A stretch of DNA of 64,000 nt from Geobacillus kaustophilus (GTDB lineage Bacteria; Bacillota; Bacilli; Bacillales; Anoxybacillaceae): contig NZ_JYBP01000003.1 in NCBI RefSeq assembly GCF_000948285.1, positions 3,348,001 to 3,412,000 on the forward strand. The letters are read 5' to 3'. Shown here in pieces: positions 13,292 through 16,376 of the stretch. A program made the position numbers and the translations under genes. Position 1 is the stretch's first letter. Every line of letters starts with the position of its first letter. Below the pieces are notes generated by a model. That model saw only the letters and a program-made list of their open reading frames with translations, was not told the DNA's origin and did not search any database.

Positions 13292-14911
13292 GTGAGTATC
13301 CATTCAGCCCAATATTCGTGAGATTTTCAGAATCCAGCACCCATAGGGCATTTCCCGTATCGAAAATGCCCTAGGAGGAATGGAGAATCGTTTGGAGAGA
13401 CTCTCCACTTAGAAGTCGTTGCAACGATTCCCAAACCGGCTTTCCGTGTTTTGGCAGGGTAGAAATGACGCTGCGCATGGCACAGAAAGCCTCGGCATCG
13501 TCTTCCTGACGAAACGTTCCGGAAATTTTTTGTTTTTTCACCATCCGCAAATCGCGCTCGGCTTGGTTGTGGTCAAACGGTACTTCTTTCTTTCGCAGGA
13601 AGAGAAGCGCTTCTTGCTTACGCTTTTCTAGACGCTGGATGAAATTCTGCGCGTTGCGGGCGCCTTCATGCTTGCCTTGTCGGCAACGCTCCTCGAGTTC
13701 TCGGCGACCATTCGCTAGAAGCTCGTCGTACACGGCTTCCCAATACCGGACGTCCTCTTCCGGTAGAGCTCCGCCCGCGTTCTCCACCGCCCATTTCATC
13801 TCCAACAACGCTTCGGCCATCTCTTTCGACCATGAATGGCCGTAAAGTTCAGTATATGCCCGAAGCTCCCGGAGATGATGGGCGTGGCAAAGGGCATGGT
13901 TCGCCTCTGTATACATCGGGTACACCGAATACGCATCATGTACCATCGTTCCTTTGTACCGTGGCAAGATCCCGATGTCGTCCGTCGCTTGCTTTCCACG
14001 GGAACGATGCAGTCCGTATCGGGTGACCTTGGCAGTGGAAGCCACGTGCACCCATTGGTTCTTTCCGTCCACACGCAGGCGCGTTTCATCGACGTGCAAC
14101 GTCTTGGAAGCGAGCAGCGCCGCGTCGATCTCTTTGATCGCTGCTTCTACCACAGGCTACCACCGTCTCGTCATGTTCACGACTGTGCCTGCACTCATCG
14201 AATGATCAACTAGTGCTTTGATCATCTCCGTGACACGCTCGCACGGGATCAACTGCGCATGATTCCAGTATAAAACAAGGGAAGTGATGGCTGGACCGTA
14301 CTGGACATGATTTGTGACATAAAAAGGGAACTCCGCCTGCTGGACGAGATGACATTCCGGACACCCCTTTACTTCCCGTTCGTGTTGAGTCACTTCCATG
14401 CGAACCACGGGAAGGTCGAACACTTGGCGAATGTCTACTTGAAGCGGAGCAACATGTTCTAGAGAGTGACCACATCCTTTGCATTGGGTTACGCGGTGAA
14501 GGACTCGGTGGTCATGATACTTGGCGGAGCGTCGTTCCTCGGTGCCCCGGCTGCCCTCCCGGCTGTTTCTGCGACGGTTGGCGAGAAGGAGATTTCGCCA
14601 CAAACCGGTCAGAAGACGGCGGCAAATGGCTATGGGTACTGTTTTTTTTCGTACAGGCTTCTAATTCTGCAATACGTGCTTTCCATTGTTGGGTTTCTTG
14701 TCGAAGCCGTTGGTTTTCTTGACGTAGTTGCTCGTTTTCTCGAACGAGTTTTTCAATCGTTTGTGCTTGGCGCTCGATTTTTGCGACCATGCTTTCGAGT
14801 GTAAAAACGGCTTGTTGGAAATCAAAAACAACGGTTGCCATCGTGTTCACCTCCCTTGTCTTGGATAGTGCTAGTATAGACAAGGGGAACAGAAATAAAC
14901 CCGATCTCGTA
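13292..14911 (-). mobile_element. IS66-family element (tnpC-only, ISBst12-like), transposase inactivated
   Basis: The element carries one transposase gene of the IS66 TnpC type and no tnpA or tnpB, the arrangement of the ISBst12 subgroup first found in G. stearothermophilus. The ends are set by an 8-base direct repeat AACTTTTT at 13284-13291 and 14912-14919; IS66 elements make 8-base target duplications. The element would be 1,620 bases, close to the roughly 1.6 kb expected. The terminal inverted repeats are weak (GTGAG.ATC against ACGAG-ATC), so the exact ends are tentative. The repeat is T-rich and could be chance. Confidence 0.7.
13371..14841 (-). pseudogene. IS66-family transposase (TnpC) with a frameshift and an in-frame stop
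   Basis: Three pieces read in order on the minus strand. The first, from the ATG at 14841 (after GGGAGGTG), carries a leucine-zipper-like helix (EKLVRENEQLRQENQRL) and the PPSSD..KQPGGQPGHRG motif of IS66 N termini. After a frameshift near 14510-14520, the second carries the zinc-finger domain (CKGCGHSLEHV..., CPECHL). It ends in TAG at 14159-14157; the third continues in the same frame with the catalytic core (HVDETRLRVDGKNQWVH, HDAYSVYP, CHAHHLREL, FDHNQAERDLRMVKKQKISG), including DDE-type Asp and Glu residues. Intact length would be about 490 residues. As written it cannot make full-length transposase. Confidence 0.93.
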
Positions 14912-15313: not shown

Positions 15314-15690
15314 TTCAAAACATCCAAATCTTCACCAAGCGATTCTGTCAATGTCAAGAGGAGTATGGAGATCGCGAAACTCAAAAACCTGTCGCTGCTG
15401 GCCAGCATGACCGGCGACGTTGGTTGGCAGCATAAGTTGTGCGCGAGGCTGGAAAAGTTGTCGAGATGAAAAATGACTACATTTTTTCCCGCCGATCCGG
15501 CTCCAGTAGCAGCATGACGAGTGCAACCAAACACAACAGCCGCACTTTGCTTGGCAGGCGCTAGTGCATCTTTTGGCCAACCTCAAATCTGTTCTTCTTT
15601 CCCTTTCTGTGATGTTGTCCATTTTGGCCTATAATGATCGCTTTGCTTAAAAGGGGCTGAAGCTTCCATTCATTCGTCATCATATTGGAA
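15314..15690. other. Degenerate intergenic stretch with no supported gene
   Basis: Several overlapping frames on both strands are open, but none has a ribosome binding site or a recognisable domain. Fragments such as VHLLANLKSVLLSLSVML (plus strand, about 15565-15620) and FHLDNFSSLAHNLC (minus strand) look protein-like and are interrupted. The stretch is probably decayed coding sequence between the orphan gene and the inverted-repeat element. Confidence 0.4.
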
Positions 15691-15935
15691 CTATATAGAT
15701 GCAATTTGAAGCTTTAACATATGTCGCTTTTGCTGAGCATTTGATCGACTGTCGGGCGAACGAACAACGCCGCTTTCAGACCCATGTATGGGTCTGTGAA
15801 GCGGATGGTTGTTCGGTCTTCCGTCACGCCAAGGCGTGACGAAGGCAAGCCACAGGCTTGCCTTCAACAGTCGAAAAATGGACAAGCCACCTTTCCGTCA
15901 AGGATATGTTAACCTTTTTCGTTGCATCTATATAG
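15691..15935. mobile_element. MITE-like element: 245 bp, perfect 14-bp terminal inverted repeats, cloverleaf-like interior
   Basis: CTATATAGATGCAA at 15691-15704 is perfectly inverted at 15922-15935. A second perfect pair, TTAACATAT (15714-15722) and ATATGTTAA (15904-15912), lies at nearly the same offset. Inside, TCGACTGT (15745-15752) pairs with ACAGTCGA (15867-15874) and encloses three hairpins. Arm 1 is 15761-15815 (CGAACAAC/GTTGTTCG, CCGCTT/AAGCGG, CAGACCCAT/ATGGGTCTG). Arm 2 is 15822-15841 (CGTCACGCC/GGCGTGACG). Arm 3 is 15842-15864 (AAGGCAAGCC/GGCTTGCCTT). There is no ORF. It fits a non-autonomous transposable element, or a structured RNA or DNA element; I do not recognise a named family. 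Confidence 0.75.
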
Positions 15936-16145
15936 AAATGCGTTGCATAGTGAAGTTAACGCTTAAAACACAAAATATTAATATAACTTAAATAAAACAA
16001 AATATTCCTTTTACACTTTTCTCATATAATCGTTTATTCTTAGGAAAAATTCCCCAAATACTTTGAATGGAAAGGAGGATCGCCTTCCATCAAACAATGA
16101 AACCCGCTTCTCATGCAAAAGGAAAAATAGAAAGGAGAGACTCTC

Positions 16146-16376
16146 GTGAAAAAAATCATTGCCGGAACTGTCATGGCGACAGCTTTGCTGGCGGCTTCCC
16201 CCTCATCATGGACGGCTCTCGATGGACATGCCTATGCCGCAGCGGAAAAGAATACAGCCGCATCTCACTATATTGTCAATGTCAACGGCAAATTGATGAC
16301 GATCCGTTCGCTCCATCGTTCGGGAACTGTTTTATTGGCGGGGAGCGATATGGCCAAGCTGTTTTCAGCTGATTAA
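16146..16376 (+). pseudogene. Truncated secreted protein with the start of a copper amine oxidase-like stalk domain
   Basis: The 76-residue product begins at a GTG after AAAGGAG. It has a signal peptide (KKIIAGTVMATALLAASPSSW, probable cleavage near AYAAA). The stretch IVNVNGKLMTIRSLHRSGTVLL then resembles the first repeat of copper amine oxidase N-terminal (stalk) domains of Bacillaceae surface proteins. The protein stops right after that, and the next codons belong to pstC, so the gene appears cut by a deletion that joined it to the pst remnant. The domain identification is from pattern memory. Confidence 0.5.

Follow-up and report, generated by a model that had tools for sequence, protein, structure and literature searches.

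Among described small repeats, the repeat unit of pneumococcus (RUP) is the one that, by description, works most like the element reported here. RUP is described as a 107-bp repeat with IS630-like ends and a TA target, found between genes and inside insertion sequence (IS) genes, and its helper, IS630-Spn1, was inferred from end similarity; the available portion of that review reports no functional motif (PMC2229807). The Geobacillus element resembles RUP in its likely IS630 helper, its TA target and its insertion into IS genes. However, RUP measures 107 bp, whereas the Geobacillus element measures 239 bp and has a four-way-junction core common to IS4-type MITEs. The bcr1-bcr3 repeats of the Bacillus cereus group, described in part of PMC3446304 as MITE-like, intergenic and often located in UTRs and operons, are MITE-like repeats of a related host and are likened to the element by description only. 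BOX of pneumococcus, with its modular boxA-B-C organization, and SPRITE, which is terminator-like with AAAA/TTTT ends (both as given in a portion of PMC3049150), are likewise modular or structured small repeats and are set apart by description.

The IS630-family IS of Geobacillus have the end pattern of the element but differ by a transposase gene in two frames, and the core was not found inside one in 40 IS630 loci. An IS4-family MITE (CACGAGTGTTGATTATCC / CAGGCGTGTTGATTAACC, 238-250 bp) carries a homologous core in mid-element but differs in its ends and in a 9-bp rather than a 2-bp duplication. The open-licence literature on Geobacillus and Anoxybacillus MITEs, repeats and cloverleaf folds yielded no paper on the element, as judged from the titles and opening lines of abstracts that were listed. 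The IS630 and IS4 copies of G. kaustophilus HTA426 have been tabulated, and the term MITE is absent from the accessible part of that text (PMC8024623). Bacillus, Geobacillus and IS630 are absent from the corresponding part of a 2024 review (PMC10969869), as is Geobacillus from the accessible parts of PMC2267715 and PMC3733652.

A MITE with a highly structured interior

The window, a 64,000-nucleotide stretch of the Geobacillus kaustophilus genome, contains a small palindromic element for which a preliminary description had listed three sets of nested repeats. By sequence inspection and repeat finding, each was present where it had been placed: perfect 14-bp ends (CTATATAGATGCAA/TTGCATCTATATAG, 15691-15704 and 15922-15935), a perfect inner 9-bp pair (TTAACATAT/ATATGTTAA, 15714-15722 and 15904-15912), and an 8-bp stem (TCGACTGT/ACAGTCGA, 15745-15752 and 15867-15874) surrounding three hairpins. 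The inner 9-bp pair is embedded in longer arms of 32 nt with 78% complementarity. The 14-bp terminal pair is perfect as described, but its outer three bases are C plus the duplicated TA rather than part of the element, and the element proper is 239 bp (15694-15932) (Table 1).

The RNA fold of the element has an energy of -119.4 kcal/mol; 200 dinucleotide-shuffled sequences gave -64.1 +/- 4.7 kcal/mol (z -11.8), and not one of them folded equally well (0/200). The fold is far above the chance level, in agreement with the earlier impression of more order than chance gives. The only open reading frames (ORFs) of at least 60 aa touching the element are of 60 and 64 aa, which bears out its reported lack of coding capacity. 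Terminal inverted repeats, a TA duplication with empty sites at five other insertions, dispersed copies and small non-coding size are all present, as are the IS630-derived features of a TA target and a spaced end motif like that of IS630-family IS. The element is a real MITE, and thus of an ordinary kind; it has probably been mobile recently, and its interior is unusual.

Table 1. Positions of the element, its parts and a related site in the window
Feature	Position	Strand	Basis
MITE proper, 239 bp, non-autonomous, IS630-type ends	15694..15932	+	filled/empty site difference at five other insertions; ends common with 1201-bp IS
Left copy of TA target; 15691 = C of CTAG	15692..15693	.	single TA in empty sites of other copies; C in 68/96 distinct copies
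Right copy of TA target; 15935 = G of CTAG	15933..15934	.	empty sites of other copies; G in 61/96 distinct copies
Left end TATAGATGC-N11-TTAAC, presumed transposase binding site	15694..15718	+	spaced motif as at IS630 ends
Right end TATAGATGC-N11-TTAAC, presumed transposase binding site	15908..15932	-	spaced motif as at IS630 ends
Four-way-junction (cloverleaf) core, ~130 bp	15745..15874	+	fold; window copy among rows of covariance model R1; found by model R2, built from the other core type alone
Closing stem P1, 5' arm	15745..15752	+	3' arm 15867-15874; fold and repeat finding
Long hairpin CGAACAAC ... CAGACCCAT/ATGGGTCTG ... GTTGTTCG	15754..15822	+	fold and repeat finding
Hairpin with tip CCAAGG, both tip orientations among copies	15823..15840	+	fold, repeat finding and copy comparison
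Hairpin GAAGGCAAGCC-ACA-GGCTTGCCTTC, both tip orientations among copies	15841..15865	+	fold, repeat finding and copy comparison
IS66 transposase stretch = empty paralogue of the site of identical copy L002	14359..14557	-	197/204 identical across joined flanks, single TA

Dispersal, target sites and IS630-type ends

When the 245-base sequence 15691-15935 was searched by BLAST against its own genome (G000; 3.68 Mb, 3 contigs), at least 84 matching pieces were recovered, with 40 of the 60 first-look candidates scored. By hand count, at least 29 of the listed pieces span 225 or more query bases. Matches were present in all 14 genomes searched of the genus Geobacillus, at 3 to 84 pieces each, and a full-length copy of 90.7% identity was found on a plasmid of G. 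kaustophilus HTA426. The copy at C3:2050723-2050967 (L002) is identical to the window copy (245/245), has unrelated flanks and is located within an IS66 transposase gene. Two identical copies with unrelated flanks, one of them in an IS66 gene, suggest recent movement.

The flanks of 12 copies were joined at a single TA and searched across the genus. Among the matches listed, junction-spanning empty sites were aligned for five insertions (L002, L003, L006, L010 and L014), and none was present for the other seven, the window copy included. All five empty sites contain a single TA and read CTAG or CTAA, and the filled sites have the form CTA-[TATAGATGC...GCATCTATA]-TAN, with base changes in some of them. 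On this comparison, the target-site duplication is TA. It is hidden in the window copy because the 14-bp end starts with C plus the duplicated target. Insertion was mostly after C, and often at CTAG, as judged from the outer bases of 96 distinct copies derived from 111 full-length matches in the loci examined (Table 1). IS630 itself prefers CTAG.

The joined flanks of L002 are matched at 100% by at least six further places in the same genome (204/204 in the one aligned) and over 197/204 positions by an IS66 remnant in the window. This remnant belongs to an IS66-family transposase at 13371-14883 (-) that is present in about three open pieces, with Pfam DDE_Tnp_IS66 in 13371-14153, and is probably decayed.

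A clean empty allele of the window copy was sought in three relatives and was not found. The right flank of this copy is conserved in all three, and the left junction is rearranged in two, in which alignment breaks off in the left flank at 15328 or 15470 and picks up again at 15925 or 15951; the third relative aligns to the right flank only. To judge from these alignments, the site of the window copy is unstable. The roughly 220 bases to the left of the element (15471-15690) were without a match in G013 (L101), as was 15329-15924 in G008 (L100). Farther to the right, similarity to the three relatives ends at 16375 in each, though the query extended to 18500. The sequence joined at 16375/16376 to the start of a secreted protein is presumably the end of a phosphate-transporter permease, and the arrangement suggests a deletion junction at this point; the short ORFs there had no match in Pfam.

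A two-mismatch search with the terminal 14-mer led to a 1201-bp IS, present in the same genome in 10 copies with the exact end that are 97.4-100% identical in pairwise comparison. This IS carries two overlapping frames, which adjoin at eight consecutive A; programmed frameshifting is a feature of IS630. Both of its halves match NF033545 (IS630 family transposase), and the second also matches DDE_3. The ends of the MITE and of the IS have a common pattern of TATANATGC, 11 bases and TTAAC. As TATANATGC-N11-TTAAC, this pattern had 307 exact matches in the 14 genomes, compared with 0 for its reverse. IS630-family matches were found in 14/14 genomes, above the cut-off in 13, and many have such ends. 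When MITE and IS were compared by short-word BLAST, the matches were 13 bp at the ends (12/13) and otherwise of chance length, with E 0.2 or worse. Because plain BLAST of the ends is weak, the kinship between MITE and IS ends rests on the spaced motif.

By this motif, the 1201-bp IS630-family IS is the likely helper of the MITE, and a different IS630 may be the true one. The shared ends point to mobilization in trans by an IS630 transposase. The transposase of the 1201-bp IS, or of a close relative, would bind both MITE ends, excise the element and paste it into TA. Taken as a whole, the locus is very probably a MITE that an IS630-family transposase mobilizes in trans, with a four-way-junction core in its interior. 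The preliminary description had proposed a search for dispersed copies, empty sites and a full-length relative with a transposase, and all three were found, with empty sites at five of the 12 insertions; its report of no clear target-site duplication gives way to the TA seen at these five. A second MITE type of about 164 bp (L147-L150) was also found, with IS630 ends and an end sequence that by eye is IS-like, and is perhaps a plain deletion derivative of an IS.

The cloverleaf core within and beyond Geobacillus

Across the 96 distinct full-length copies, base pairs of the core are mainly invariant or broken on one side. Among the inner modules, reduced to 53 non-redundant ones, pairing holds in 94.3% of cells, 8 pairs have double changes compared with 4.8 in shuffles (17/500 as high), and the covariation score is 0.060 compared with 0.052 (0/500 as high) in shuffles that ignore relatedness. 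Covariation within Geobacillus is weak on these counts.

A covariance model of the inner module, termed type I (R1; 129 positions), matched 30 of the 41 genomes searched in the family, and 8 of 9 genera, at E <= 0.001; some of the low-copy matches may be degenerate or due to chance. The counts reached 82 in G027, 28 in G023 and 33 in G040, the last of another genus. A second core type, with a TCTGCC/GGCAGA closing stem and a GGCATGC hairpin, was found in G028, G033 and G040, and on its own folds into the same four-way junction. In an alignment of this type (A5; 15 rows, G040 contributing 12), pairing holds in 96.0% of cells and 15 of 49 pairs have double changes, compared with 6.4 in shuffles (0/500 as high) and at most 5 in slid versions; further pair types, one of five measures, numbered 25 compared with 26.4 and did not exceed the shuffles. 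From 36 cores of the two types aligned with MAFFT (A4), RNAalifold predicted the three hairpins but no closing stem; of the 27 predicted pairs, 15 are compensated in one or more sequences. A4 is misregistered between the core types in the second hairpin and the closing stem, and its counts are secondary to those of A5 and of A3. A3 holds 79 cores (120 rows minus 34 further same-locus matches and 7 loci with partly deleted cores) and leans to its own model. Between the two core types the closing stem, whose arms lie more than 100 nt apart, differs on both sides. Collectively, these alignments argue strongly that the stems covary between lineages. The covariation that the preliminary description had proposed to look for is therefore evident between lineages but weak within Geobacillus. 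That description had also named a single copy, no covariation and no empty sites as evidence against its reading; since the findings contradict all three points, the reading as a MITE holds.

A second model (R2) was built from the second core type without any IS630-type MITEs. R2 recovered the window copy (55 bits, E 2.1e-10), and R1 in turn recovered type II cores with E as low as 3.3e-11; both models give rough E-values. Among 397 genomes of the order, R2 had matches in at least 17 and R1 in at least 13, both of which are lower bounds because eight candidates per genome were scored. Matches outside the family were found in G150, G170, G206, G316 and G340, with a single match each in G150, G206 and G316 (E 6e-10 to 5e-8). 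In the G. kaustophilus genome itself, the cores at C3:759629 and C3:1491350 are clearly of the second type, and another, at C3:731215, is unclassified. In viral contigs, two core patterns had no match.

MITEs with the second-type core have different ends, CACGAGTGTTGATTATCC and GGTTAATCAACACGCCTG / CAGGCGTGTTGATTAACC. An IS in the genome of the window (L064, about 640-1890) combines such ends with an IS4-family transposase (NF033592, E 2.5e-66). Ten IS4-framed elements in the loci examined measure 238-250 bp. Their 9-bp target-site duplication is exact in five, has one mismatch in three and is absent in two, and R2 detected the core in all ten (72.9 to 111.4 bits). The window element is without IS4-type ends or a 9-bp duplication; its ends are of IS630 type, and the core alone is common to it and the IS4-type MITEs. 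When the core was sought by BLAST inside IS in 40 IS630 loci, the core matches lay, by position, on separate MITE copies. Similarly, R2 had no match at E <= 0.01 inside an IS in five IS loci (four IS630 and one IS4).

To assess the kinship of the two core types, four cores of type I were aligned with five of type II and scored against 300 decoys that keep the structure but have their base pairs shuffled among its positions. In 18 of the 20 comparisons the real alignment beat every decoy (z from 3.6 to 12.4), and on this measure the two types are homologous. By hand count, four cores from other families beat all decoys in 11 of their 16 alignments to type I and in 13 of their 20 to type II; their kinship to types I and II is less sure. 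As far as these comparisons reach, the core module is carried by at least two unrelated MITE lineages, which points to exchange or capture of the core between them. Since a homologous core is present in IS4-family MITEs with different ends, and matches extend to other families of Bacillales, the core is a module of more than one transposon lineage.

Still other arms surround the core in G040 and G340. Cores with still other arms, some of them with very long hairpins, were likewise seen at L334 and L349 (G340), L337 (G206), L338 (G316) and L339 (G150), in other Bacillales families. Five Anoxybacillus loci (L229, L365, L374, L382 and L403) have further R2 matches of 51-59 bits beside strong ones; first- and second-type cores appear to lie together there, and the first type was confirmed by R1 at L229.

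Hairpin tips, strand neutrality and the role of the core

The hairpin tips of the core occur among the 96 Geobacillus copies as reverse-complement units. One tip reads CCAAGG/CCTTGG in 20/25 copies and CTAAGG/CCTTAG in 16/9, and the other reads CTGTG/CACAG in 43/18 and CATAG in 3 against CTATG in 6; 11 and 3 copies, respectively, are without a readable tip. Flips were also found between near-identical copies, in which they account for 2 of 4 differences (L006/L008), 3 of 5 (L153/L164) and 2 of 5 (L193/L194). In G040, tips read TTCTA/TAGAA in 15/3 and AAAAAT/ATTTTT in 11/5, and flips are rare in a set dominated by A. tepidamans (GAAG 20/0; TCACAGA/TCTGTGA 13/1). Template switching is described as both inverting spacers and homogenizing arms (part of PMC8604942). 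The flipped tips are a sign of such switching, which would account for them. Template switching can also imitate covariation, and is the chief caution against taking covariation of the stems for selection.

Strand comparisons gave no consistent bias. Minor G-U occurred at 38 pairs and minor A-C at 50; by helix, G-U was more frequent on the + strand in the outer arms and one hairpin, and on the - strand in the closing stem and the middle part. Of 79 cores, 39 folded more stably on one strand and 40 on the other. Of the 96 Geobacillus elements, 60 folded better on + and 32 on -, a skew that may be explained by relatedness. By crude ORF calls, the neighbors of 50 sites were co-directional at 36, convergent at 9 and divergent at 5, with some sites inside an ORF. 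The 36 copies amid co-directional ORFs were oriented with the genes in 16 cases and against them in 20 (hand count), and no preference in orientation relative to genes is seen. The absence of an orientation preference and the equal strand energies of the 79 cores speak against a strand-specific RNA gene.

We commit to the view that the benefit of the core would lie in a strand-neutral foldback rather than in such a gene, and that the core would be kept because it can fold on either strand. As the inverted tips suggest, the core would fold as single-stranded DNA during replication, with the polymerase switching template between the arms. The foldback could act as DNA hairpins at the fork, or it could, as a double-stranded transcript formed in either orientation, insulate or cut host messages. 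A role at the DNA level is possible, though we would not count on it, and an orientation-neutral role in transcripts is rather doubtful, as is a core that brings no benefit at all. Tentatively, the core may be an independent selected module, captured by at least two unrelated transposon lineages of Bacillales (IS630- and IS4-mobilized MITEs, and perhaps two more frames), with a common benefit through its fold on either strand. The preliminary description had envisaged a non-autonomous element whose folded strand or transcript is functional; copies, empty sites, covariation between lineages and an IS with matching ends uphold the MITE. The fold itself may be functional, but covariation within Geobacillus is weak, the strand bias is inconsistent, and template switching could imitate covariation.

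If true, the proposal of a captured module would describe a cargo without a gene, the fitness value of which lies in structure alone. What lies between the IS ends of a MITE is often regarded as meaningless filler, but here the filler is conserved while the ends differ. A core common to two transposon families makes the function of bacterial MITE folds directly testable. Near-identical copies with flipped tips form a natural record of apparent template switching, and warn that covariation in palindromic repeats alone is no proof of a functional RNA.

The same inversions enter into the reading that the core is functionless and consists of inherited palindromes, with covariation and flipped tips as products of template switching between inverted-repeat arms. 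Tips inverted as units in Geobacillus and in G040, the described homogenization of arms together with spacer inversion (PMC8604942), and the many departures within Geobacillus that merely break pairs are what this reading would lead one to expect. It accounts less readily for the hairpin order and stem motifs (CGAAC/GTTCG, CAAAT/ATTTG and GGCAAG/CTTGCC) kept across MITEs with different ends, and for a closing stem changed on both sides between core types despite its widely separated arms; we regard it as somewhat unlikely. A passenger gene in the MITE for a structured RNA or riboregulator, transcribed from a single strand, would fit the very stable fold, the excess of double changes in the second core type, the compensated pairs in the RNAalifold hairpins and the 60 to 32 skew toward + among Geobacillus elements. 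However, neither G-U versus A-C nor the energy of the 79 cores gives an overall strand preference, and copies with and against co-directional neighbors are 16 and 20. The whole window had no Rfam match at the gathering score (0 matches), and a relaxed search of 15500-16100 gave three matches of at most 18.1 bits, which is the chance level. In seven relatives, strong Rfam matches (ylbH leader, purine riboswitch and RAGATH-18) lay outside the core, and those inside cores were far below gathering scores. On these grounds the RNA gene, one of two alternatives in the preliminary description, was rejected as improbable.

The interior could also be unremarkable filler in a simple internal-deletion derivative of an IS630 element, since elements of such a kind, the ~164-bp MITEs, seem by eye to be present in the genus (L147-L150). 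This is highly improbable for the window element, which beyond its ends has only chance-length BLAST matches to the 1201-bp IS, and which has a core homologous to the one in IS4-type MITEs; in the 40 IS630 loci, no autonomous IS630 was found to carry the core beside its transposase. The other earlier alternative was a recombination site, either site-specific or an integron-like folded one. The hairpins recall attC sites, which are hairpins on a folded single strand, but the element inserts at unrelated TA sites with TA duplication, and it has terminal inverted repeats and a matching IS630 partner; a recombination site is barely credible and was rejected. The reading as an IS630-mobilized MITE with a four-way-junction core is preferred.

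Several composite arrangements were encountered among the loci. L066 (C3:2948142-2948364) is a hybrid MITE, one end of which is IS-like while the other arm and the core resemble those of the window element; its hairpin apex reads CAGACAAAT/ATTTGTCTG in place of CAGACCCAT/ATGGGTCTG. In L012/L028, two MITEs have one common CTATATAG. An IS630 is inserted into an IS4-type MITE at L346, and at L347 an IS4-type MITE is flanked by an apparent IS630-type MITE arm. In two other genomes, core-bearing MITEs lie near a purine riboswitch (L231:1790-1891) and a RAGATH-18 RNA (L239:791-854).
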